The notes below the pieces were generated by a model. The model made no database searches. It worked only from the letters and a program-made list of their open reading frames with translations, and was not told where the DNA came from. A DNA stretch of 32,799 bases from Bacteroidota bacterium (GTDB taxonomy: Bacteria > Bacteroidota > Bacteroidia > Bacteroidales > CAJPTX01): assembly GCA_002748015.1 (NCBI GenBank), contig PDRH01000026.1, positions 1-32,799 on the forward strand, written 5' to 3'. The translations under genes and the position numbers were made by a program. Every line of letters starts with the position of its first letter. Within the stretch, counting starts at the first letter, position 1. Shown here in pieces: positions 7,723-30,882 of the stretch.

Positions 7723-8898
7723 ATGGCCAAGGTGCTACTGGTCTACTACCCTAGCGTGCAGGCTCCCCTGGTTGGGCGCATTGTCGAGCAGATGCGCACC
7801 AGAGGTCTAGAGATGGACAGCCTTAACCTACCAACTGCCCAGCTCAACGGCCAGCCCCTCAATACTGGCGGTCCATACGGGTTCCTTCGGCGCATGCTCT
7901 CCCCCCTCCTGCGAATCGCCATCATCCGGAAGGCCCTCTCGCCCCTCCTGGCCTCCCTCCTCCTGCGGCGCGTCGCAAGGGGCTACGATATGCTCGATTT
8001 CCACTATTTCTCCGTGGACTACATGCCCTACATGTGGAGTCCCTCTCGCCCCTATGCCATTAGCATATGGGGTTCGGACTTCTACCGGGAGCGCCCCTTC
8101 ATCCAGCGCCTCAAGGCAAAGCTGTACCGCCGGGCGCTCTACGTTCGGGTAGCAACGGAGGCCATGGGGCGTGATGTCCTGTCCCGTTTCCCTGACCTTG
8201 ACGGTTGCATAGAGGTGGCGAACTTCGGGGTGGAGCTGCTCGAGGAGATAGACCTGCTTCGTGGTAGCGCAAAGAGCCTAGTCCCCGAATCTGAAAGGGA
8301 TGGTCGCCTGGTGCTTACCTGTGGCTACAATGGTAGCCCCGCCCAGCGGCACCAGGCCATTCTTGAGGCCATCTCCCGCCTTTCCGATACCCAGAAAGAG
8401 CGCATTTTTCTCTACCTACCGCTCACCTACGGTCTTACTCCCGAGTACAGGGCGGAGCTAATAGCCCGTCTGCAGGAACTCGCCCTACCCTATCGCCTCT
8501 TCGAGCAACGGCTGAGCGATGGGGATATGGCCCTGCTGCGTCTGGAGACCGACGTGGTGGTGAACATCCAGACCACCGATGCTCTCTGCGCATCCCTCAC
8601 CCAGCATCTCTACGCTGGCAACGTCCTCATAGCGGGCGACTGGCTACCCTACGAGATCTACCCCCAGACCGGGGTTTACTATCTTCCCACTACAATAGAA
8701 GCCCTCCCCATCCACCTGGCTACATGCATCGACGGCTACGAGCAGCAAAGCCACGCCACCGAGCGCAACCCTGAGCGCCTACGGCAGTGGGCAAGCTGGC
8801 AGGTTGCAGGCCGGCGACTCTACGAATTGTACATCAAAGGACTAAAGGAGATAGAAGCCTATGGAGGGCAGGGTGCCAACGGAGCTACTGATAGCTAG
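7723..8898 (+). CDS. Putative glycosyltransferase (GT-B-like)
   Basis: SIWGSDFYRERPFIQRLKAKLYRRA, CGYNGSPAQRHQAILEAISRL, C-terminal half DVVVNIQTTDALCASLTQHLYAGNVLIAGDWLPY; family assignment uncertain. Confidence 0.65.
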   Translation: MAKVLLVYYPSVQAPLVGRIVEQMRTRGLEMDSLNLPTAQLNGQPLNTGGPYGFLRRMLSPLLRIAIIRKALSPLLASLLLRRVARGYDMLDFHYFSVDYMPYMWSPSRPYAISIWGSDFYRERPFIQRLKAKLYRRALYVRVATEAMGRDVLSRFPDLDGCIEVANFGVELLEEIDLLRGSAKSLVPESERDGRLVLTCGYNGSPAQRHQAILEAISRLSDTQKERIFLYLPLTYGLTPEYRAELIARLQELALPYRLFEQRLSDGDMALLRLETDVVVNIQTTDALCASLTQHLYAGNVLIAGDWLPYEIYPQTGVYYLPTTIEALPIHLATCIDGYEQQSHATERNPERLRQWASWQVAGRRLYELYIKGLKEIEAYGGQGANGATDS

Positions 8899-9922
8899 GA
8901 GCGCAACGGGCATAGAGGCATTGCGCCAGATGGATGCCGTGGGGCATAAGATGCTCATCGTCGTGAATGCAGATGGGGGCTTCCACTCCATCCTTACGGT
9001 GGGCGACCTCCAGCGCGCCATCATCGCCAGCTACGATATTGCCCAGAGCATTGATGGGCTACTCGACCCGAAGTCTAAGGAATACGCCTACGTATGGGAG
9101 AGCGAAGAGGATATTCGTCAGCGCATGCTGGCCATTCGTGCGGAGTTCATGCCCGTGCTCGACGAGGCGGGCGCATTGCAGCGGCTCTACCTCTGGGAGG
9201 ACTTCTTCCCGAGCACCTCCCACGTGGCTGAGCGCGAGCCCCTAGATCTCCCTGTGGTCATCATGGCCGGTGGGCGAGGCGAGCGCATGAAGCCGCTTAC
9301 CAACGTAATACCCAAGCCGCTCATCCCGATAGGTGAGAAGACCATCCTCGAGACCATCCTTGATCAGTTCGCTGCCATCGGTTGCCACCGCTTCTACATC
9401 TCCGAGAACTACAAGGCAGGTTTGCTCCAGTACTATTTATCCGAGCTCGAACTCCCCTACTCCATTACGCACGTGGTGGAGGACAAGCCCATGGGGACCA
9501 TTGGCAGCGTCTCCCTAATGGCCGAGAGCATCGATACCCCCTTCTTCGTTTCCAACTGCGATATCCTCGTTGATCAGGACTACCGGGATGTATACGACTA
9601 CCACGTCTCCAACTCGAACGACATCACCGTGGTAACCTCCATGCAGGCGCAGCGCATCCCCTACGGGGTCATCGAGAGCGGCCCTGACGGCCTCCTCGAG
9701 CGCGTGATAGAGAAGCCCGAGAATATCTATATGATAAATACCGGGGTCTACCTGCTCAACGCCGAGATGATAGATTTAATCCCCCGGGACACCTTCTTCC
9801 ACATCACGGACCTTATCGCGGAGGTTATTGCCAAGGGGGGCCGCGTGGGTTGCTTCCCGGTGAGCGAGCGCTCCTGGCGGGATATTGGGACCTGGGCAGA
9901 GTACCTGAGGGTTCTGGGCTAG
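8861..9922 (+). CDS. CBS-domain + sugar nucleotidyltransferase (PtmE-like)
   Basis: N-terminal CBS-like segment (IEALRQMDAVGHKMLIVVNADGGFHSILTVGDLQRAII), then PVVIMAGGRGERMKPLTNVIPKPLIPIGEKTILETILDQF, MGTIGSV, FFVSNCDILVDQDY. Confidence 0.85.
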   Translation: MEGRVPTELLIARSATGIEALRQMDAVGHKMLIVVNADGGFHSILTVGDLQRAIIASYDIAQSIDGLLDPKSKEYAYVWESEEDIRQRMLAIRAEFMPVLDEAGALQRLYLWEDFFPSTSHVAEREPLDLPVVIMAGGRGERMKPLTNVIPKPLIPIGEKTILETILDQFAAIGCHRFYISENYKAGLLQYYLSELELPYSITHVVEDKPMGTIGSVSLMAESIDTPFFVSNCDILVDQDYRDVYDYHVSNSNDITVVTSMQAQRIPYGVIESGPDGLLERVIEKPENIYMINTGVYLLNAEMIDLIPRDTFFHITDLIAEVIAKGGRVGCFPVSERSWRDIGTWAEYLRVLG

Positions 9923-9944
9923 TCTGAATGGCCTTTGCCTTGGG

Positions 9945-15733: not shown

Positions 15734-17035
15734 ATGATAGAGGCATTTGTACTGCGCAATGTGCTATCTTTTCGTGATGAGGTAGTTCTGAGCTTTATCG
15801 CCGATGAGGGGGTGGGAGGTGGTGCCTCATCGTATTGTGTGGAGGCTGCGCATGGGATACGCCTTTTGCGCTTGGCTCTGCTCTTCGGTGGGAATGCTTC
15901 GGGGAAGACGAATGTGCTGGTGGCGCTCCATTTCCTACTTCAATTTATGGCTTCTTCCTCAGAAGGAGAGTCTAATAATCTGAGCAAGGGAATCGCCCTG
16001 GAGCCCTTTATCCTCGATGAGGTCTCCCGCGAGCAGGAGTCGAGACTTGAGCTCTATTTCCATCCTCGCAATTCGACGGGGGGGTATAGTCGTTACCGCT
16101 ATGAGCTTATATTCATCAAGGAGGGGGTACTGAGTGAGCGTTTGTGGGTCTATCGTACGAGTAGACCAAGCCTTTTGTATGATAGGGGAAATGGGGAGAT
16201 TCGCTTTGGCTCTGCTTTAGGGGCAATCCCTCGCGCTGTAAGGGATGAGCTGAAGGTGAAGACGCTTCGTAATATGTCCGTCTTGGCAGCCTATGCCCAG
16301 GTGAATTTTGCCAATCCAGATTTGGAGCGCGTAGTTGGCTGGGCGGTATCATATTTAGCCTCTAGCAATCCTCATCCACAGAGTATCCGCGATATGGCGC
16401 AGTACTTGTGGGATAATAAGGATCTTATTCCCCGGCTTGTTGAGCGCATGCGTTTTGCTGATTTCAATATTTCTGATATTCGTCCGGAGGTGCAAGAGGT
16501 TGACATTGAGGTGCCATTGCCCTTTGACGATATCCTGAATAAGGAGTCTGAGGGGCGTGGAAGCGGGGCTCCCCCTGTCCGTACCATTCGTAAGAGGATG
16601 GTGCGTTTGCTGTTTGAGCATGAGGTGCAGGTGGATGGGGAGCTTCGAAAGCGTTGGTTGAATGCTCATATGGAGTCGGCTGGTACGTTGGGCTTGCTGA
16701 ACCTGTTTCTAAAGGTCGCTTTTGCATTTGAGGTGCATGGCTGTATTCTGGCGGATGAGATTGAGCAGTCGCTGCATCCAACCCTGCTCGAGGATTTTCT
16801 GGATCATTTCCTCTATGCAGAGAGCGATTCGCAGCTCATTGCATCGACGCATTTGGACTCCTTGCTACACTATGTAGATGCGATTATTCGGCGGGATAGC
16901 ATTTGGTTTACTGAGAAGGATGAGGAGGGAGTCTCGGATTTGTACTCGCTGATGGTAATTAAGGGTCTGGCTAATATAAGCGATTTTCGCAAGGCGTATC
17001 GGGATGGTCTTTTGGGAGGTGTTGCCTATGTCTAG
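15734..17035 (+). CDS. AAA-family (ABC/OLD-like) ATPase, RloA-like
   Basis: IEAFVLRNVLSFRDEVVLSF, Walker A LLFGGNASGKTNVLVALHFLLQFM, HMESAGTLGLLNLFLKVAFAFEVHGCILADEIEQSLHPTLLEDFLDHF, SQLIASTHLDSLL. Confidence 0.88.
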   Translation: MIEAFVLRNVLSFRDEVVLSFIADEGVGGGASSYCVEAAHGIRLLRLALLFGGNASGKTNVLVALHFLLQFMASSSEGESNNLSKGIALEPFILDEVSREQESRLELYFHPRNSTGGYSRYRYELIFIKEGVLSERLWVYRTSRPSLLYDRGNGEIRFGSALGAIPRAVRDELKVKTLRNMSVLAAYAQVNFANPDLERVVGWAVSYLASSNPHPQSIRDMAQYLWDNKDLIPRLVERMRFADFNISDIRPEVQEVDIEVPLPFDDILNKESEGRGSGAPPVRTIRKRMVRLLFEHEVQVDGELRKRWLNAHMESAGTLGLLNLFLKVAFAFEVHGCILADEIEQSLHPTLLEDFLDHFLYAESDSQLIASTHLDSLLHYVDAIIRRDSIWFTEKDEEGVSDLYSLMVIKGLANISDFRKAYRDGLLGGVAYV

Positions 17036-17612
17036 CTTGCGAAGAAAATCTAAGCGGGAGCGGGAGCGTGGAGAGCCAGTCCCTGTGCTGATAGTGGAAG
17101 GTGAGTGTGAGCGTAGCTATTTCAATCTGCTGCGTAGTAAGAGATTCCCGTTTAGGGTGAGGCTACCGAAGCCCTCAAGCTCTATGGCTAAGCTACGGAG
17201 CATCATAGATGCAGAGCTTTTGGTGGCTTCACGAGTCGTTGTGGTGTATGATATGGATGTTCAGCAGGATAAAAGCGTTGCTGCGAATTGGCAGGAGCTA
17301 CGCGATAGCTATGAGGGGCAGGGGGTAGAGTTCGTTTTGAGCAATCCTTGCTTTGAGTACTGGTTTCTCTTGCACTTCATTGAGGAGTACGGTGTGATGT
17401 CCAGCCACCAGCTTTTGCAGAAGTTGAAGAGATATGCTCCAAATTATGCCAAGAGCTCCACTGGTATAAGGGCGATTTCGCAAGCGATTGATGGGATGCG
17501 TGAAGAGGCGATAAAGCGAGCGGATAGGTCGTGTTCTCGGTATGAAGAGTTTGAGGGTGGTTCTTTCACTCAGGTGGGCGGTTTCCTACGTAAAATGGAG
17601 GAGAAGGTATGA
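17028..17612 (+). CDS. RloB-family protein (Toprim-like motifs)
   Basis: VPVLIVEGECERSYFNLLR, VVVVYDMDVQQD, FVLSNPCFEYWFLLHFIEEYG; ATG 17028 (M9 of the called ORF) overlaps the ATPase stop. Confidence 0.82.
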   Translation: MSSLRRKSKRERERGEPVPVLIVEGECERSYFNLLRSKRFPFRVRLPKPSSSMAKLRSIIDAELLVASRVVVVYDMDVQQDKSVAANWQELRDSYEGQGVEFVLSNPCFEYWFLLHFIEEYGVMSSHQLLQKLKRYAPNYAKSSTGIRAISQAIDGMREEAIKRADRSCSRYEEFEGGSFTQVGGFLRKMEEKV

Positions 17613-18799
17613 AGAAGCTGCTGCTGCTAGGTGCTCAGGATACGCACCTGCCGCTGATACGGCGGGCGAAGGAGCGTGGGGTGTACGTGATTACCTGCGA
17701 CTACCTGCCGGAGAATCCTGGCCATAAGCTGGCTGATGAAGCCTACTATGATAGCACGACCGATCGTGAGGCCGTGCTGCGCTTGGCGGAGCGGCTGGGG
17801 GTGGATGGCATCATGACCTTCAGCTCTGATCCGGCGGCGCCCGTTGCGGCGTGGGTGGCTGAGCGATTGGGCCTACCCGGCGGGGGGGCTGAGGCCGTGC
17901 GTATCATGTCGGAGAAGGATGCCTTTCGGGACTTTCTGCGGAAGCATGGTTTCAGGGTGCCACGTTTCTCGAGCTATACCAGCCTTGATGGGCTGCGGGG
18001 AGATTTGGAAAGTCTCAGTTTCCCCTTGATGGTAAAGCCGGTGGATGCGTCGGGTAGTAAGGGGGTGGAGCGTGTTGCGGATGCGGATGCCCTGCTGCAG
18101 TGCTTCGAGGGGGCGCTTGCCTACTCCCGTTCTGGTCGCGTAATCGTGGAGGAGTGCATCGATAGCGACTATCCGCAGCTGCATGGGGATGGCTTCGTGT
18201 TGGGGGGCGAACTGGTATTCCTGCAGCTGGGGGATCACCATTTCAACCCTGAGGTGAATAATCTGGTGCCGATAAGCAGCACATTCCCCTCTGGGCAGCC
18301 GGAGGAGCAGGTGAAGCGGGTGGAGGAGGAAATCCGTCGTTTTATTCGTTTGGTGGGCTACCGTCAGGGGGCGATTAACGTGGAGGCGCGGGTTTCTGCT
18401 GGGGGGGAGGTCTATATTATTGATATAGGGGCGAGGAATGGTGGTAACTTCACGCCTCAGACCATCGAATACTCGACTGGTTTCGATTTCGTAGATGTAG
18501 GGCTGAGCGTGGCATTGGGCGAGCCGTTGCAAATTCCTTCTGCGGTGCGGCGTGCCTGCTATAGCCATCTGGTCGTGCATGCAGCTGCGGATGGCGTTTT
18601 GGACGGCCTAGAGTTTAGCGAGATGCTGAGGGAGCAGATAGTGGAGTGGCATCCTTGCGTGGAGGTGGGTGCATCGGTCTTTGCGTTTCGGCGTGCCAAT
18701 GCGGCCATTGGGGTGCTGATTGTTCGGTCTGATAGTGTTCGGGAGCTGAATGGTGTTGCTGATGGGATGGACGAGCATGTGCGGGTGTACTTGCGATAG
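17609..18799 (+). CDS. ATP-grasp domain protein (paralogue 1)
   Basis: MKKLLLLGAQDTHLPLIRRAKERGVYVITCDYLPENPGHKLADEAYYDST, FPLMVKPVDASGSKGVERV, VIVEECI, YIIDIGARNGGNFTPQTIEYSTGFDFVDVGLSVALGE. Confidence 0.92.
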   Translation: MKKLLLLGAQDTHLPLIRRAKERGVYVITCDYLPENPGHKLADEAYYDSTTDREAVLRLAERLGVDGIMTFSSDPAAPVAAWVAERLGLPGGGAEAVRIMSEKDAFRDFLRKHGFRVPRFSSYTSLDGLRGDLESLSFPLMVKPVDASGSKGVERVADADALLQCFEGALAYSRSGRVIVEECIDSDYPQLHGDGFVLGGELVFLQLGDHHFNPEVNNLVPISSTFPSGQPEEQVKRVEEEIRRFIRLVGYRQGAINVEARVSAGGEVYIIDIGARNGGNFTPQTIEYSTGFDFVDVGLSVALGEPLQIPSAVRRACYSHLVVHAAADGVLDGLEFSEMLREQIVEWHPCVEVGASVFAFRRANAAIGVLIVRSDSVRELNGVADGMDEHVRVYLR

Positions 18800-18881
18800 C
18801 CTGGGATATTTGGGGGGCAAGTTGCGTAATTTGCATGGTGCTGTTTTACCTTGGCTTGAGGCTATAGTGGTGGGTTTTACC

Positions 18882-18889
18882 TACCTTTG
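18882..18889 (+). promoter_or_regulatory. -7 promoter element TACCTTTG
   Basis: gttttacctacctttgcggggt in the 220-bp gap between ATP-grasp paralogues 1 and 2. Confidence 0.6.
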
Positions 18890-19019
18890 CGGGGTATCGG
18901 TTTGGAGTCATTCATAGATTATGCCTGTTTACAAGCAATACTACCTGCGGAGTTCCTAGGAGGGACGTGTGGTTTTTGGGGGCTAAGATATGCCCAATTG
19001 ATAAATTGGAGGTGAAGAG

Positions 19020-20221
19020 ATGAAGAAGTTGCTGTTGCTAGGGGGGTTGAGATATTTGCTCCCAGTTATTGAGAAGGCTCACAAGCTAGGGATGTATGTT
19101 ATCACCTGCGATAATGTGCCGGGGAATATTGCGCATAGGTATTCGGATGAGTATTGCGATGTAAGCATATTGGATCTGGAGGCAGTGTTGGCACTGGCGA
19201 AGGCGAAGCGAATCGATGGCATCATGTCCTTTGCGGTTGATCCAGGCGTTGTTACGGCGGCGTATGTGGCTGAGCAGATGGGTTTGCCACATGTAGGTTC
19301 GTATGATTCGGTGCGTATTCTGCAGCATAAGGATTTGTTCCGGGCATTCCTGCGAGATAATGGGTTCAATGTCCCGATGTCTGGTGGGTATAGCGAGTAT
19401 TCGGAGCTACTTGATGATATTGGGCGGTTTACCTTTCCGGTCATCGTCAAGCCTGTGGATTCTGCGGGTAGTAAGGGGGTTTGCCGTGTTGAGGGGATTG
19501 AGGAGCTGAAGGGTGCCTTCGCCTTTGCTAGGGCTAGTTCGTTCAGTGGTCGCGTGATAGTGGAGGAGTTCATTGAGGCTGAGGGGTGCTCTTCTGATAC
19601 AGATTGCTTTTCTCAAGATGGGGAGCTACGTTTTATAAGCTTCAACGACCAGATGTTTGAAGCGGAGAGTGCCAATATTTATGCGCCGAGTTCCTTCATA
19701 TGGCCTAGTGGGATGGCATCTTCGTCTCAGGACTGTCTAGCATCGGAGCTGCAACGCTTGGTGCGTTTGCTTAGCTTGGGCTCGTCGCTCTACAATGTGG
19801 AGACGCGGGTTGGATGTGACGGTAAGCCCTATATCATGGAGTTCTCTCCGAGGGGGGGGGGAATCGCCTGTCGGAGGTGCTAGGGATGGCTACTGGTGTG
19901 GATTTGATAGAGGCGGCCGTACTGGCGGCTGTGGGTGAGCGTTTTGACCTCCCTGCGACCTATGGCTATGATGGGGTTTGGGCGGAATTGGTACTCTTTG
20001 CGGAGCAAGCGGGGAGATATAATGGTTTACACATAGATGTGCGACTTCGGCCTTTCATTGTGGAGGAAGATGTATGGGTTGATCTTGGCGATTTTGTGCA
20101 TCAGTTCACGGGTGCGAATGAGGCGATTGGTACAATCGTATTCCGTTTTTCTAGCCGGGCAGAGGCGGATGAGATTTGGTCTGGGATTCGGAAGATGGTA
20201 AAGGTAGATGTGGTGCGATGA
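19020..20221 (+). pseudogene. ATP-grasp domain protein (paralogue 2), reading frame interrupted at a G10 tract (frameshift, phase-variable or sequence error)
   Basis: ORF 19020-19883 reads MKKLLLLGGLRYLLPVIEKAHKLGMYVITCDNVPGN...IMEFSPRGGG then goes out of frame (IACRRC*); the next frame continues NRLSEVLGMATGVDLIEAAVLAAVGERF... to 20221. One added G restores SPRGGGNRLSEVLGMATGVDLIEA, the expected ATP-grasp C-terminal region. Confidence 0.85.
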
Positions 20222-21324
20222 GGAAGAGAATAGCGGTACTAGGGGCCAACGAACCATTGCTACAGTTCTATAGGAAGGTAGACCGTTCTCGCTTTGAGGT
20301 GCACGGTATAGCGTGGGCGGATGGCAGCGTTTGTCGTGATTACTGCGATGTTTTCCATCCATTAGACCTGCGGGATAGGGCTGGGGTTCTTTCCCTGTGT
20401 GAGAGCCTCGGCATCGAGGGGGCCAGCACCTTCAGCCTGGAGAGCGCCGTGCCCTTACAGGTCTTTTTGGCTGAGGAGTTGGGCTTGGTACATCCGGGCT
20501 CTTCTGTGAAAGCCTGGGTTGGGAATAAGGCGATGCTTAGGGATATGCTCCGTCGAGAGGATGTGGGGTATAATCCTGCGAGCCAAAGCGCTAGCCTTTT
20601 CTCGGCGTTGGATTTGGCCGAGATGCAGTTCCCGGTGGTTGTCAAGCCGATGGATGGCGGCGGGAGTCGAGGGGTTGTTCTTGCCAAGGGCGAGAGCGAG
20701 TTGCCTGATGCTTTTGCCTATGCGCAATCGCATTCGAAGTGCGGTGAGGTGGTTGTAGAGGAGTTCCTCCTGGGTGAGGAGTTCTCGGTGGAGTATATTT
20801 CATATGGGGGTAGGCACTATTTTCTGGCTTTGACCAGGAAGCGTACGAGTGGGGCGCCGCATTTCGTGGAGCTACATCATACGCAGCCTTCTGGTGTAGA
20901 TGATGCCTGCCAGTTGGCCGTGCGGGCTGTTGTCGAGAGGGCGCTCGATGTTCTAGGTATAGAGAATGGCGTGAGCCACACGGAGATTATCATCGGTAGC
21001 GATGGACGGGTGAGCGTTGTGGAGGTAGGCCCTCGCATGGGGGGGGACTATATAACGTCCCATCTGACCGAGCTTAGCACTGGTGTCGATTTGGTCAACC
21101 TGAGCTTGTCGTTAGCTTGTGGGGATTTTGCCCCTCCCGTCGTGGAGCAGCAGCCGGGGGGCGGGGTGCTATTCTATACCCCCGATACCCGGCAAGAATT
21201 TGAGGCTATGCTGCATGGAGCGAATGTGATCGAGAGTGCATGTGCGTCCTTAGCCGGCACCTGTGAGAACAATATGGAGCGGAGTGGCTATTTGGTCTAT
21301 AGGAATGTGCTAGGGAATGGTTAG
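20218..21324 (+). CDS. ATP-grasp domain protein (paralogue 3)
   Basis: RKRIAVLGANEPLLQFYRKVDRS, FPVVVKPMDGGGSRGVVLAKGESEL, VVVEEFLLGEEFSVEYIS, VVEVGPRMGGDYITSHLTELSTGVDLVNLSLSLACG; ATG 20218 overlaps the TGA at 20219-20221. Confidence 0.9.
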   Translation: MRKRIAVLGANEPLLQFYRKVDRSRFEVHGIAWADGSVCRDYCDVFHPLDLRDRAGVLSLCESLGIEGASTFSLESAVPLQVFLAEELGLVHPGSSVKAWVGNKAMLRDMLRREDVGYNPASQSASLFSALDLAEMQFPVVVKPMDGGGSRGVVLAKGESELPDAFAYAQSHSKCGEVVVEEFLLGEEFSVEYISYGGRHYFLALTRKRTSGAPHFVELHHTQPSGVDDACQLAVRAVVERALDVLGIENGVSHTEIIIGSDGRVSVVEVGPRMGGDYITSHLTELSTGVDLVNLSLSLACGDFAPPVVEQQPGGGVLFYTPDTRQEFEAMLHGANVIESACASLAGTCENNMERSGYLVYRNVLGNG

Positions 21325-25026: not shown

Positions 25027-25102
25027 TCGTTAGTTAGAGCTGATTTAGGGGTTGTGGTTATTTCCCTCGCTCGTTGCTAGGGAGGCTTTCCTATGTTTTC
25101 GC

Positions 25103-25159: not shown

Positions 25160-26980
25160 ATGCAGGCAATAATACTGGCGGCAGGTATGGGGCGGCGGCT
25201 TGGGGAGCATACCAAGGAGAATACGAAGTGCATGGTGAAGGTCAATGGTGTGCGCCTCATTGACCGGATGCTTTCGCAGCTCGCTGTGTTTTCGGTTGAG
25301 CGTGTTGTCATCGTTGTAGGCTATAAGGGTAGGGAGCTACGTGAGTATATCGATGAGCGCTATAGCGATAGGTTGCGTATAGAGTATGTCTGCAATCCGG
25401 TATACGATACGACCAACAATATCTACTCTCTTTTCCTTGCCAAGGAGCATCTGCAGCGAGGGGACACTCTGCTGCTTGAGTCTGATTTGATTTATGAGGA
25501 TAGTATCCTGGAGCTGGCGATCAATTCGTTGCATCCCAACGTGGCGCTCGTAAGTGCGTATCAGCCCTGGATGGATGGCACGATGGTTCGGATAGATGCT
25601 GATGGTAATATTACCGCCTTCATTCCGAAGGCGGATTTCAAATATAGCGAGGTTTCGACCTACTACAAGACGGTGAATATATACCGCTTTAGTGAGCGTT
25701 TCTCACGGGAGGTGTACGTTCCTTTCCTTGAGGCGTATTGCAGTGCCTTGGGGCGTAATGAGTACTATGAGCAGGTGCTGAGTATGATTATCCATCTCAA
25801 CCGGAAGGAGATAAAGGCGCTTCCCGTAGGGGATTTGGGTTGGTATGAGATAGATGATGTGCAGGATCTGGACATTGCCGAGGCCATATTTGCGCCTGAT
25901 GAGGAGAAACTTTCTCGCTATACCCAGCGGGGTGGTGGTTACTGGCGTTTTGAAACGCTCTTGGATTTCAGCAATCCCGTTAATCCGTTTTTCCCCACCG
26001 TACGGTTGCGTGAGGAGTTGCGGGCGAGCTTTGATCCCCTCGTGACCACGTATCCTTCAGGCATGGGGGTGCATGCCTTGCTGGCGGGGAAGTACTTTGG
26101 CGTACGCGCGGAGTATACAGTGTTGGGGAATGGGGTGGCAGAGTTGTTAGCCGCATTGATGCGGACGATTAGCGGCAGACTGGGTGTAGTATGCCCTACT
26201 CTCGAGGAATATGCGAACCGGTGTAAGCCGGAGCAACTAGAGGTTTTCGTGCCGCAGAATGTCGATTTCATGTATACCGCTAAGGATTTAATGGTATACT
26301 TCGAGGGGCGTAATCTAGGAACTCTCTTGCTAATTAATCCGGACAATCCGTCGGGGAATTTCATCTCGCTAGCAGATGTTGTAGAGTTGCTCGGGTGGTG
26401 TCGTGCGAGGGGCATTCGTCTTGTTTTGGATGAGAGTTTTGTGGATTTCTCGGAGGGCTTCCAGGGAAACTCGTTGCTGTCAGATGCAATGCTGGTTGGG
26501 TACCCCAACCTCTGCGTTGTGAAGAGTATATCGAAGTCCTACGGCGTGCCGGGGCTACGGCTCGGTGTGCTGGCCTCCTCTGACCGGGGGTTGGTTGATG
26601 CAATAATGGCCGAAGCCTCTATGTGGAACATCAACTCCTTCGCTGAATACTACATGCAGATTTTCGGTAAGTATACCTCTGACTATGTAGATGCTTGCGC
26701 TAGGCTTGTTGTGGAGCGTGAGCGTTTTCGTGGGCTTTTGAATGGCATTCCATTCCTGCGGGTAATTCCGTCGCAGGCCAACTATTTTTTGTGCGAGGTA
26801 TTCGGTGCGTATACCTCGCGCGGTTTGACAGAGGTACTATTGGGGCGGTCTAGTATATTGGTGGAAGATTGTAGTACGAAGAGGGGTTTTGAGGGGAGGA
26901 GCTATATACGGATTGCAGTGCGTAGTGTAGAGGACAATGACCGGCTGGTGCAGGTGTTAGGCAGTCTATCTGCTAAGTAG
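25160..26980 (+). CDS. Bifunctional: LicC/PntC-like CTP:phospho-alcohol cytidylyltransferase fused to a class I/II PLP aminotransferase (CobD/HisC-like)
   Basis: N-terminus MQAIILAAGMGRRLGEHTKENTKCMVKVNGVRLIDRMLSQL, DTTNNIYSLFLAKEHLQRGDTLLLESDLIYE; C-terminus LDFSNPVNPFFPTVRLREELR, TYPSGMGVHALLAGKYFGV, LLINPDNPSGNFI, LVLDESFVDF, VVKSISKSYGVPGLRLGVLAS. Confidence 0.88.
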   Translation: MQAIILAAGMGRRLGEHTKENTKCMVKVNGVRLIDRMLSQLAVFSVERVVIVVGYKGRELREYIDERYSDRLRIEYVCNPVYDTTNNIYSLFLAKEHLQRGDTLLLESDLIYEDSILELAINSLHPNVALVSAYQPWMDGTMVRIDADGNITAFIPKADFKYSEVSTYYKTVNIYRFSERFSREVYVPFLEAYCSALGRNEYYEQVLSMIIHLNRKEIKALPVGDLGWYEIDDVQDLDIAEAIFAPDEEKLSRYTQRGGGYWRFETLLDFSNPVNPFFPTVRLREELRASFDPLVTTYPSGMGVHALLAGKYFGVRAEYTVLGNGVAELLAALMRTISGRLGVVCPTLEEYANRCKPEQLEVFVPQNVDFMYTAKDLMVYFEGRNLGTLLLINPDNPSGNFISLADVVELLGWCRARGIRLVLDESFVDFSEGFQGNSLLSDAMLVGYPNLCVVKSISKSYGVPGLRLGVLASSDRGLVDAIMAEASMWNINSFAEYYMQIFGKYTSDYVDACARLVVERERFRGLLNGIPFLRVIPSQANYFLCEVFGAYTSRGLTEVLLGRSSILVEDCSTKRGFEGRSYIRIAVRSVEDNDRLVQVLGSLSAK

Positions 26981-26983
26981 GTT

Positions 26984-27769
26984 TTATCGCCAGAATGCTT
27001 GTGTGAAGTGTTTTGGTCGCTTGTGCTTTGGTGGGGGAGTCATGTAGTCTTCTCCGTATACTGTGGAAAGGTATGCGTGTACGTCGTTAGGCGCATCGAG
27101 TAGGCGTCCCTCAAATTCTATTTCTGTGGGGTTCTTGAAGATGTGGTGTGGGAAGCTATACTGAAGTTCCTCGATGCTTGTAACTACTTTTGAGCCGTTG
27201 AAATCCTTGACTCTTGTCCATTTGATGTAGCTCGAAAGAAGCGGCTTGTAGCCGATGATTCTGCTGGCCTTCCAGAGTGGCCATGCTATTGCTTTTTTCC
27301 ATGTCGGCATTTGGGGCATGCCGTTATGCACAGCGACCACACGCATTTTGAAGAGTAGCAAAAGTAGCCGGATAATAAGGTTGGGATACTTTGGTTGTCC
27401 ATCTATTGGGAAGATGTCTATCCACAACCCCAGGCCGGGTATTGGGTCTACTAGGGGTTCTTCTACCTGCGTGCGTTTGTCTATCACCTTGATAAAGGGG
27501 TAGTAGTAGTCCTTTTCTCCAGGTATGAATAGTCTGAAACGTTCGGTTTCGATTTTGGTGGCGAGTTCTACCATACGGTTGTAGCTTTCCGTGGGCATGT
27601 AGATATCTATGTCGTCATCCCAGGGGATAAAGCCCTTGTGGCGAACGGCCCCCAGCAGGGTCCCGTAGGCTAGGTAGTATGTTAGCCCGTGCTGTTGGCA
27701 AATGTCAACAATGTAGTCGAGGATTTCAACCTCAACCGTTTTGACCTCTTCAATTGTTAGTGGTTGCAT
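26984..27769 (-). CDS. LicD-family phosphotransferase
   Basis: MQPLTIEEVKTVEVEILDYIVDICQQHGLTYYLAYGTLLGAVRHKGFIPWDDDIDIYMPTESYNRM; start M17 of the called ORF preferred. Confidence 0.92.
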   Translation of the reverse strand: MQPLTIEEVKTVEVEILDYIVDICQQHGLTYYLAYGTLLGAVRHKGFIPWDDDIDIYMPTESYNRMVELATKIETERFRLFIPGEKDYYYPFIKVIDKRTQVEEPLVDPIPGLGLWIDIFPIDGQPKYPNLIIRLLLLLFKMRVVAVHNGMPQMPTWKKAIAWPLWKASRIIGYKPLLSSYIKWTRVKDFNGSKVVTSIEELQYSFPHHIFKNPTEIEFEGRLLDAPNDVHAYLSTVYGEDYMTPPPKHKRPKHFTQAFWR

Positions 27770-27780
27770 CTTCTTGCTTC

Positions 27781-28854
27781 TTATAGACCAATGAATTTGA
27801 TAAATCTTCTCTCCCATAGTATATTATCATCCACAAATTGCTGGAGAAGTGTGGCCCTCTGCGAGAGGTATTGCTGGGGGTTAAGCTCGGCGTAAAATGT
27901 GAGTAGCTTTTCGCCTAGGTTTGCTGTGTCTGTAATGGCTAGCCCCACTCCATACTGTGCAGCATAGGTCCCCTGTACGGTGTCGTGGGTGCAGATCATG
28001 GGGCGTCCGTATAGGAGGGAGTTGTAGAAGCGGTTGGATAGAGCGGCATCCCCATTGGGGTAGCGATTGTAGAAGATGTTCATGAACGATGAGGCCAGGA
28101 TGTAGTCCTCTTCCTCCTCTTTCCTGTAGAAGCCCTCGAATGAGATGTTCTCTACATGGTGGTCCTTGGCGTATTGCTTCAGGTTCTCTTCTTCTGGTCC
28201 CCAGCCCACGAAACGGATGAAGAAGCGATGGTCATTGCTGAGGGCTTTAATAATCGCCGAGTTGGAATCGAAGCTGCGAATGCCTCCTATGGTAAGAACT
28301 TCTATCGCCTCTTGTTGGGTTGGAGCGTTTGCTAGTCCTCGCTCTAGGTTCTGGCTAATTTTATGGCCGTCAAAATTGTGGCAGAGGGTGTATTCTACAT
28401 CTTTCGGTAGGTAGTTGATAAAACCTGGGGATGAGACCACCTGCAATGCGCTGCACTCCAGGGCCTTTCTGAATGGGTACATGAAGGTCTGGTCAAAGCT
28501 CATGTCCCTGTAGTCTATCATGTATTGCCCGCGGTACTCCTTCCTAAGAAAGCGGTATAGAAACGAGGCAACCTGAGGTCCAAAGATGATGAGACGGTCG
28601 TAGTTATTTTGCTTGATTTGCTCTTTGGCGAATGCTGTGAATCCCCAGTATGATGCTATTTTCCCGGTGCTACTCCTTGCGCAGGGTTTGCGGTAGGCGA
28701 TGCCGTTGTTGAGTTCCTCCGCCTTGTTCTCCCTGTCCCAGAAGATGATATCATGCGCTATACCTTGCTCTGCCAGTAGTTGTCGGTATGGGTTGATGAA
28801 GGGGGCAAAGAAGAGGTTCGATGGGACTACGAAGGCGATTCTGAGGCTATTCAT
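27781..28854 (-). CDS. Glycosyltransferase (GT4/group 1-like)
   Basis: MNSLRIAFVVPSNLFFAPFINPYRQLLAEQG..., IRFVGWGPEEENLKQYAKDHHVENISFEGFYRKEEE, NRFYNSLLYGRPMICTHDTVQGTYAAQYGVGLAI; start corrected from 28923, which lies upstream of the promoter. Confidence 0.8.
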   Translation of the reverse strand: MNSLRIAFVVPSNLFFAPFINPYRQLLAEQGIAHDIIFWDRENKAEELNNGIAYRKPCARSSTGKIASYWGFTAFAKEQIKQNNYDRLIIFGPQVASFLYRFLRKEYRGQYMIDYRDMSFDQTFMYPFRKALECSALQVVSSPGFINYLPKDVEYTLCHNFDGHKISQNLERGLANAPTQQEAIEVLTIGGIRSFDSNSAIIKALSNDHRFFIRFVGWGPEEENLKQYAKDHHVENISFEGFYRKEEEEDYILASSFMNIFYNRYPNGDAALSNRFYNSLLYGRPMICTHDTVQGTYAAQYGVGLAITDTANLGEKLLTFYAELNPQQYLSQRATLLQQFVDDNILWERRFIKFIGL

Positions 28855-29061: not shown

Positions 29062-30882
29062 ATGCATGGGATAAGTACGTGGTTTACTAGGATAGTACCC
29101 GGGAAGGATGAGGTTCGTCCTATGGGAACCTGGCTTTTTTACTTCACAATACTTGCATTTTTCATTCCTACTGTTTGGGCGTACATAGATGGTTGGGACG
29201 GAATGACTAATAGCTATGCGGCATGGATTTGGTTAGTTGTGGCAGCCTGGTTACTGGGTTTATCCGTGGCGCTAGGTTTGTTACATGAGTGGCTGGCCTC
29301 GTGTTGCTGTGGGCTCGTAGGGCGTTTTGTTCACATGGGTATTGTCCTATGGGTGGCTTTTTGGGGGGCGTTTTCCCTCTATCTGCGCTACAATTTTGGT
29401 TGCGGTATCGGTGAGAGCGTGATAGCGAATATCTATGCGACGAATGAGCGTGAAGCACGTGAGCTGATTTTCAACACCAATATGTTTTCCATGGTGTCCG
29501 TCCCGCTTTACGTGCTTTTGGCTTCTGCCGTTCTGTCCTATATCCTAAGCAGGGTGCTCCCGCTGCGTTTACCCTTTCGCTTGCTGAGGTTCTTGAGATT
29601 CGCCGCGCTGTTGCTATTCGTCTTTTTGGGATGCTTCCATTCGTACACCTTCATGTTCAAGCTCGATGAGGCGCAGGGACCGCTTGTCCGGTATTGGATG
29701 ATGTCCGAGCCAGAGTGCCTTATTTGGGGGCACTTTCGCTACAAGTGGAATATGCAACGTTTCTACGAGCTGCGGTCGCAGAAACGGGAGGTGGAGGTAG
29801 CCGTTACGGATGTTGAGCGTTTGCCTGATAACCTGGTTATTATTGTGGGGGAGAGTACGCGGCGGGAGTACTTGTCGCTCTACGGCTACCCGCTGGAGAC
29901 CACGCCAATGCTTGACAGCATCGCCCAAACGGGGAGCATGGTTGTTTTTGCTAATGCCGTGGCCCCTCGCTTCTCTACGCGGGAATCGGTTCCTGAGAGT
30001 CTGACGACGCATTCAGTTGACAGCGTGGGGCAGGATTGGTTCGTTATGCCTTCGCTACCGGATATCCTTCGTGAAGCGGGCTATGAGACCTTCTGGCTCA
30101 GTGCGCAGCATCCCTTCGGGAAGGAGAGCTGGCCAATCTCTACAGTGGCCTTAGGGTGCGATTCGGTAGCTTTCCTTGAACCCCTGCTGCTGCGTAAGAG
30201 GGGTGGGCTTCGGGTGATTTATCATGACGGAGATTTACTCTCTTACCTGCAGGTTGGGGATTCTACTAGGCGGGTTGCTCTCTTCCTCCATCTCGAGGGC
30301 CACCATACGGATTACCAGAAACGGTATACCGATGAGTTTGCCATTTTTAGTTCTGAGGATATCCCCTACCAAGAGGAAGAGGCGAAGCGGCATGTCCTTG
30401 CGCACTATGCGAACGCTTCGCGCTATAACGATTGGGTGGTATCGGAGGTCGTTAAACGTTACCGTAATACCGATGCGATGGTGTTCTACTTCTCTGATCA
30501 TGCCCAGGCACTCTATGACGACGTAACTAATCCCAATGTGATGGGCCATCTTAAGTCCTACGTAGGTCTGCGTATTCCATTCATGGTCTGGATGTCGGAT
30601 TATGCCTTGCAGCTACCGGATTATAGGGGTGATTTGCGTAGACAAACCATGCAGATCATGCGTAGGGCGCAGGATCGACTCTTTGTAAATGACATTTTCA
30701 CCCAGAGCGTATGTGGTCTCTTGGGAATCGAGGAGGCTAGCATTTCTGCCAAGGAGAATCTATTCTCTCCCGAGTATGATACGCTAAAGGTGAGAAGGAT
30801 TTATGGCGGTTCCTACTTTGGTGCTGATACTGTCGATGCGCTACCTTCGTTCAAGACCTGGCTGGAGGCTCGTATGCAGTAG
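29062..30882 (+). CDS. EptA-like phosphoethanolamine transferase (sulfatase fold, N-terminal TM domain)
   Basis: NLVIIVGESTRREYLSLYGYPLETTPMLDS, ANAVAPRFSTRESVPESLTTHS, LFLHLEGHHTDYQKRY, AMVFYFSDHAQALYDD; alternative start ATG 29122. Confidence 0.87.
   Translation: MHGISTWFTRIVPGKDEVRPMGTWLFYFTILAFFIPTVWAYIDGWDGMTNSYAAWIWLVVAAWLLGLSVALGLLHEWLASCCCGLVGRFVHMGIVLWVAFWGAFSLYLRYNFGCGIGESVIANIYATNEREARELIFNTNMFSMVSVPLYVLLASAVLSYILSRVLPLRLPFRLLRFLRFAALLLFVFLGCFHSYTFMFKLDEAQGPLVRYWMMSEPECLIWGHFRYKWNMQRFYELRSQKREVEVAVTDVERLPDNLVIIVGESTRREYLSLYGYPLETTPMLDSIAQTGSMVVFANAVAPRFSTRESVPESLTTHSVDSVGQDWFVMPSLPDILREAGYETFWLSAQHPFGKESWPISTVALGCDSVAFLEPLLLRKRGGLRVIYHDGDLLSYLQVGDSTRRVALFLHLEGHHTDYQKRYTDEFAIFSSEDIPYQEEEAKRHVLAHYANASRYNDWVVSEVVKRYRNTDAMVFYFSDHAQALYDDVTNPNVMGHLKSYVGLRIPFMVWMSDYALQLPDYRGDLRRQTMQIMRRAQDRLFVNDIFTQSVCGLLGIEEASISAKENLFSPEYDTLKVRRIYGGSYFGADTVDALPSFKTWLEARMQ

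Follow-up and report, generated by a model that had tools for sequence, protein, structure and literature searches.

A LicD-linked cytidylyltransferase–PLP enzyme fusion of Bacteroidales as a candidate one-polypeptide route from serine phosphate to CDP-ethanolamine

FrbH, an enzyme of FR-900098 biosynthesis in Streptomyces, carries a cytidylyltransferase and a decarboxylase in one protein (PMC8976061, PMC8007912). In Campylobacter jejuni, Cj1436 makes ethanolamine phosphate from L-serine phosphate (Ser-P) for the capsule (PMC12409886), and Mf1, a LicD-type enzyme, transfers phosphoethanolamine from CDP-ethanolamine in vitro (PMC11982090). The window analysed here, the whole stretch of 32,799 nt under study, is a contig of a 1.44-Mb assembly that is 69% complete, and it encodes a bifunctional cytidylyltransferase/PLP-dependent (Ser-P decarboxylase-like) fusion. 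We propose, with a probability of roughly 0.6, that this fusion makes CDP-ethanolamine, or a close CDP-aminoalcohol, from Ser-P and CTP, and that LicD moves phosphoethanolamine to a surface glycan. The analysis shows the domain make-up, the tree placement, the conservation of catalytic residues, the linkage of genes and of fusions, and the scarcity of PEP mutase; all substrates, products and the reaction order are inferred.

The fusion is a single unbroken ORF of 606 aa (25160-26980, + strand), as the first-pass annotation had described it, joining a LicC-type nucleotidyltransferase to a class I/II PLP enzyme. A longer ORF from TTG at 25052 (+) is possible; the start was placed at ATG 25160, since every family member begins at the methionine of MQAIILAAG. 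The cytidylyltransferase domain covers residues 1 to about 245 (25160-25900) and the fold-type I PLP domain residues about 255-605 (25910-26977). The result of the profile search showed NTP_transf_3 at residues 3-124 (47 bits) and Aminotran_1_2 at residues 311-600 (89 bits), and the motif SISKSYGVPGLRLG was found in the protein. The AlphaFold2 model, with 37 family members in the input, was confident throughout (pLDDT 91, pTM 0.87), indicating that the fusion is a genuine two-domain protein.

Relatives were searched in two sets. Among 198 genomes of the same order, 6 had full-length fusions at 51-59% identity, and 3 (L008, L009, L011) had a split version with adjacent separate genes and a CDP-alcohol phosphatidyltransferase alongside. 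A scan of named genomes gave at least 80 full-length fusions at 54-63% identity, which showed that the feature is not due to chance. The best 80 came mostly from Prevotella, Bacteroidaceae, Muribaculaceae and Paludibacteraceae, with two MAGs labelled Fibrobacter; these loci were the top-ranking matches to the window query rather than a random sample, and their genes were taken from simple ORF calling and clustered by BLAST. Plasmid records added homologues from Fusobacterium vincentii (45% identity), Erwinia, Rahnella, Gloeothece, Priestia and Pseudonocardia, for which public annotation gives only 'aminotransferase class I/II-fold PLP-dependent enzyme'. LicD was present in 66/80 best-matching loci by profile count on the fetched stretches, and within 3 kb of the fusion in 63, so that the association first seen in the window is general in the family.

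Several relatives deserve separate description. The L007 homologue (genome G151) has several altered active-site motifs (PDTFSG, DESDVDF, and a missing KDC loop), and its PLP function is probably changed or lost. A Bacteroidales group (L010, L012, L013) has stand-alone SMUL_1544-like PLP enzymes whose linked genes are a class I glutamine-amidotransferase-like one and, in L010 and L013, a HAD-like one. In L033, a possible IspD/TarI-like nucleotidyltransferase-LicD fusion of 509 aa (8412-9938) lies directly upstream of the cytidylyltransferase-PLP fusion. Priestia megaterium plasmid pBM700 (NC_014023.1, L158:18160-26285) holds an operon-like run of two ATP-grasp genes, a Lys/Orn-type N-monooxygenase, an AAC(3)-type acetyltransferase, the fusion (32% identity to that of the window), an ORF like CDP-alcohol transferases, and a second DXR gene; no PEP mutase motif was found in 39 kb. 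The run resembles what an FR-900098-type cluster would look like without the C-P bond, and fosfoxacin/fosfocytocin (N-acetyl-N-hydroxy-ethanolamine phosphate and its CMP ester) would be a matching product.

By sequence comparison, the N-terminal domain resembles LicC and PntC. Residues G9, G11, R13, K23, E107, S108, D109, D232 and D233 are invariant in 85/85 fusions; in the alignment, K23 corresponds to the family's catalytic Lys and E107 to Glu104 of PntC. In PntC this Glu faces the primary amine of 2-aminoethylphosphonate (AEP), and LicC has Asp there (PMC6697681). Glu107 would fit a primary amine, such as that of ethanolamine phosphate, better than choline, which is weak evidence when taken alone.

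For the PLP domain, the top PDB sequence match was 6oux at 132 bits; Salmonella CobD reached 99 bits and chains named HisC at most 89 bits. The 6oux chain is SMUL_1544, the L-Ser-P decarboxylase of norcobamide synthesis. In a maximum-likelihood tree, the fusion domains, their split-gene homologues, a third Bacteroidales group and SMUL_1544 formed one clade with 100/98 support, and the same branch put CobD of cobalamin loci and HisC on the opposite side. Dropping the intermediates or SMUL_1544 left this split unchanged (SH-aLRT 98-99); the exact sister group of SMUL_1544 is unsure because its branch is long. The tree was taken without Cj1436, Cj1437 and FrbH, and the clade may include an aminotransferase member. 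The motifs C[YF][LI]xNPY and [ILV]WNIN are common to the clade and SMUL_1544, whereas CobD reads SANINPL and PWSVN. In Foldseek, the C-terminal domain matched 6oux and CobD at a TM of about 0.8-0.86, taken by target length, with 2.3 A for the CobD match. The PLP lysine K459 (codon 26534-26536, +) is invariant in 85/85 aligned fusions. These results supported a predicted place for the PLP domain with the phospho-amino-acid decarboxylases, specifically with the Ser-P decarboxylase SMUL_1544. The domain did not group with CobD, HisC or AEP transaminase, and the grouping with HisC or AEP transaminase that would have refuted the first-pass annotation was thus not seen. HisC identity was rejected by the tree and by a hisC (TIGR01141) score of 107 bits against a cut-off of 276.6.

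In the proposed pathway, the PLP domain would take the carboxyl group off Ser-P, and the N-terminal domain would add CMP with CTP as the source; the net reaction on one polypeptide would be Ser-P + CTP -> CDP-ethanolamine + CO2 + PPi. LicD would then transfer phosphoethanolamine from the CDP adduct onto the surface glycan. No report of a Ser-P decarboxylase together with a cytidylyltransferase was found in the open-access literature. Decarboxylation may come first, as with SMUL_1544 and Cj1436, which use free Ser-P, or cytidylylation may come first, as with FrbH. In the latter order, which we consider possible but unlikely, the N-terminal domain would make CDP-serine and the PLP domain would decarboxylate the nucleotide adduct, with the same end product. 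FrbH sets the precedent by cytidylylating 2-amino-4-phosphonobutyrate before decarboxylation, and the residues aligned to CobD His8, Asn32 and Arg323 are altered in many or all fusions. However, the nearest characterised relative acts on the free substrate, FrbH enters the comparison through published descriptions, and the split-gene versions of L008, L009 and L011 indicate that tethering of the two domains is not needed.

The PLP domain might also act as an aminotransferase like Cj1437, giving serinol phosphate from dihydroxyacetone phosphate and a CDP-serinol tag. Cj1437 performs this reaction in a capsule locus, and the fold is common to aminotransferases, but the domain groups with the Ser-P decarboxylase and outside HisC in the tree, which was built without Cj1437, and we regard such activity as improbable. 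It is quite improbable that the domain is a CobD-like Thr-P decarboxylase producing (R)-1-amino-2-propanol phosphate for a CDP-aminopropanol donor. The top NCBIfam model for the fusion is CobD (TIGR01140), ahead of hisC, and DFSNPVNP of the window copy is part-way to DFSANINP of CobD; the score of 165 bits, however, is under the cut-off of 290.6, the tree parts the clade from CobD, and the fusion lies among surface-glycan or housekeeping genes rather than in cobalamin loci. CobD identity was rejected on the tree and the cut-off.

PEP mutase (PF13714) was not found by profile search in the window or in its 69% complete assembly, and it exceeded the cut-off in only 4/50 fusion-carrying genomes. 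Two of the 80 best-matching loci (L056, L084) had a PEP mutase gene near the fusion, both proteins with the EDKxxxxxNS motif; most sub-cut-off PF13714 matches were about 275 aa and presumably are ketopantoate hydroxymethyltransferase-like. The near absence of PEP mutase favoured phosphoethanolamine over phosphonate, and the PEP mutase route was rejected for most of the family, being absent from 46/50 fusion genomes and from the assembly of the window. The lean away from phosphonate, taken at first from the lack of PepM in the window, found support at the level of the 69% complete assembly, where no pepM operon was seen. That the fusion is a PntC-like enzyme activating AEP is highly improbable: Foldseek with the whole model does return the general PntC-AEPT layout, and PEP mutase does occur beside the fusion in those two loci, but the PLP partner in PntC is a class V transaminase, 6pd1 matches by sequence only the N-terminal domain, and the PLP domain here is class I/II, so AEP-transaminase identity was rejected.

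The window copy is a divergent family member, with 63% identity at best. It has G258 where other fusions carry Y/F, N272-P273 where 82-83/85 members have Y-L, and E569 where others have K/R/S, position 569 being not strictly conserved in the family. Its loop reads SNPVNPF, departing from the C[YF][LI]xNPY of the SMUL_1544 clade. G258, N272-P273 and E569 align with substrate-binding positions of CobD. Because the copy departs from the family at these presumed pocket positions, its own substrate is less certain than that of its relatives; it may have changed, and an assembly error behind the odd residues is possible. No reductase gene is linked to the window fusion.

The licD-family phosphotransferase gene (26984-27769, - strand) is convergent with the fusion, and the two stop codons are 3 bp apart, in agreement with the layout first noted. 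It scored 144 bits for PF04991 against a cut-off of 22.6 and has the DxD-type motif WDDDIDIYMP, which places it in the LicD family; the nearest NCBIfam model is Mf1, under cut-off. The start at 27769 suits an upstream gene ending at 27781, which would be overlapped if the longer ORF from 27817 were used. The presence of an EptA-like gene at 29062-30882 was confirmed as well (Sulfatase and EptA_B_N domains; top NCBIfam model CptA-type, under cut-off). EptA-type enzymes draw their group from phosphatidylethanolamine, not from a CDP adduct, and a part for this gene in the pathway is unsupported. Other genes of the polysaccharide locus include UDP-GlcNAc 2-epimerase, UDP-sugar dehydrogenase, sugar aminotransferases, a Wzx-type flippase and three ATP-grasp genes. 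The last are consecutive (17609-21324) and L-amino-acid-ligase-like, with possible amide decorations of the glycan. Within the same locus, an AAA ATPase and RloB-like pair (15734-17612) matches the AbiL defence models AbiLi and AbiLii, and a chemotaxis-receptor-like protein with HAMP and MCPsignal domains (710-2245) heads it, which is unusual for the group.

As to the neighbours of the fusion in its relatives, an octopine-dehydrogenase-family gene (PF02317) was present in 49/80 best-matching loci and an ornithine-cyclodeaminase (OCD)/mu-crystallin-family gene (PF02423) in 18/80, nearly always directly downstream of the fusion on the same strand. The two were never found together (0/80 loci; Fisher p = 6e-10, ignoring relatedness). 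Thirteen of the 80 loci had neither reductase, and 7 of those genomes hold one elsewhere (3 octopine dehydrogenase, 4 OCD). The top solved relative of the octopine dehydrogenases is octopine dehydrogenase 3c7a, and both L032 and the copy of the window genome have the residues that align with its His212 and Asp329; the latter copy lies on another contig (C48), is 43% identical to that of L032 and adjoins der- and era-like GTPase genes. The top solved relatives of the OCD-family protein include imine reductases. Gene fusions gave further linkage: L039 and L040 encode a cytidylyltransferase-PLP-octopine dehydrogenase triple fusion of 945-946 aa, and octopine dehydrogenase-LicD fusions were seen in L038, L061, L068 and L071 (full reading for L038 only).

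The reductase type changed repeatedly in the family. On a quick tree of the fusions, the octopine dehydrogenase or OCD label changed at least 20 times, and 14 changes were forced by well-supported branches. Between L097 (octopine dehydrogenase) and L082 (OCD), which share the order metG-fusion-[reductase]-licD, MetG is 94%, the fusion 91% and LicD 86% identical, whereas the reductase genes in the shared slot are unrelated. LicD identity does not track the reductase type. Because the reductases swap and LicD identity ignores their type, two unrelated reductases appear to fill the same slot, and LicD to tolerate both.

A keto-acid/imine reductase as the strongest partner suggests that the amine is modified further. 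As an optional step in most relatives, the adjacent octopine dehydrogenase or OCD-family reductase probably links a 2-keto acid to the primary amine, and the product would be an N-(1-carboxyalkyl)ethanolamine phosphate. In the simplest reading, both reductases would act on the imine that the tag's amine forms with a keto acid, reducing it to the same or a near-identical product; that they yield opposite stereoisomers is speculation. In Gloeothece the fusion and LicD are separated by a methyltransferase gene, and the split genes of Rhizobium sp. 007 have octopine dehydrogenase and a methyltransferase as neighbours; both arrangements agree with a product whose free amine is modified later. We suggest tentatively, at less than even odds, that the family converts CDP-ethanolamine, via either of the two reductases and before LicD transfer, into an opine in CDP or phospho form, N-(1-carboxyalkyl)ethanolamine phosphate. 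In Prevotella and relatives, a single surface epitope would then show an inherited chemical polymorphism, perhaps as opposite stereoisomers or with different keto acids. No report of carboxyethylamino-ethyl phosphate in polysaccharides was found in the open-access literature, and to our knowledge such an opine-type surface tag has not been described for these bacteria.

Taken as a whole, the phosphoethanolamine and LicD parts of the first-pass annotation are retained, with substrate and product predicted from sequence, and the EptA-like gene is dropped; it had missed that FrbH already has this layout, and the keto-acid/imine reductase partner. If the proposed pathway is true, many gut and rumen Bacteroidales would make CDP-ethanolamine from serine phosphate in one polypeptide and place zwitterionic groups on the cell surface with no choline or ethanolamine salvage and no phosphonate chemistry. 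Zwitterionic surface groups play a part in immune recognition and phage binding. Two non-homologous reductases have replaced each other repeatedly where the neighbouring genes otherwise match, which offers a directly testable case of chemical variation at a surface locus.

Compared with known systems, the fusion is like FrbH in having an N-terminal PF12804-type cytidylyltransferase and a C-terminal PLP decarboxylase, assigned in the window by phylogeny, on one chain. The likeness to FrbH was drawn from its published description; FrbH uses a PEP-mutase-made phosphonate for an antibiotic, whereas the fusion family is nearly without PEP mutase and has LicD and keto-acid reductases as partners. 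PntC-AEPT of Treponema denticola (6PD1/6PD2) likewise joins a LicC-like cytidylyltransferase, with the amine-facing Glu, to a fold-type I PLP enzyme, but its PLP part is a class V AEP transaminase without sequence match to that of the window, and the system depends on PEP mutase. SMUL_1544 (6OUX) is the nearest characterised relative of the PLP domain and has the CYLxNPY and WNIN motifs in common with the family, although it stands alone, without a cytidylyltransferase, in a cobamide pathway. Octopine dehydrogenase (3C7A) and OCD-family imine reductases are the counterparts of the partners in most relatives, and we know of neither with CDP- or phospho-ethanolamine as the amine. Cj1436 shares the decarboxylation of Ser-P to ethanolamine phosphate for a surface polysaccharide; in C. 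jejuni, however, the product is amide-joined by Cj1438, without CDP activation (PMC12409886). In the LicC/LicD system, LicD moves a CDP-activated amino alcohol to the glycan, and Mf1 accepts CDP-ethanolamine; the Lic system imports choline, whereas the amino alcohol of the fusion would come from serine phosphate and may become an opine.
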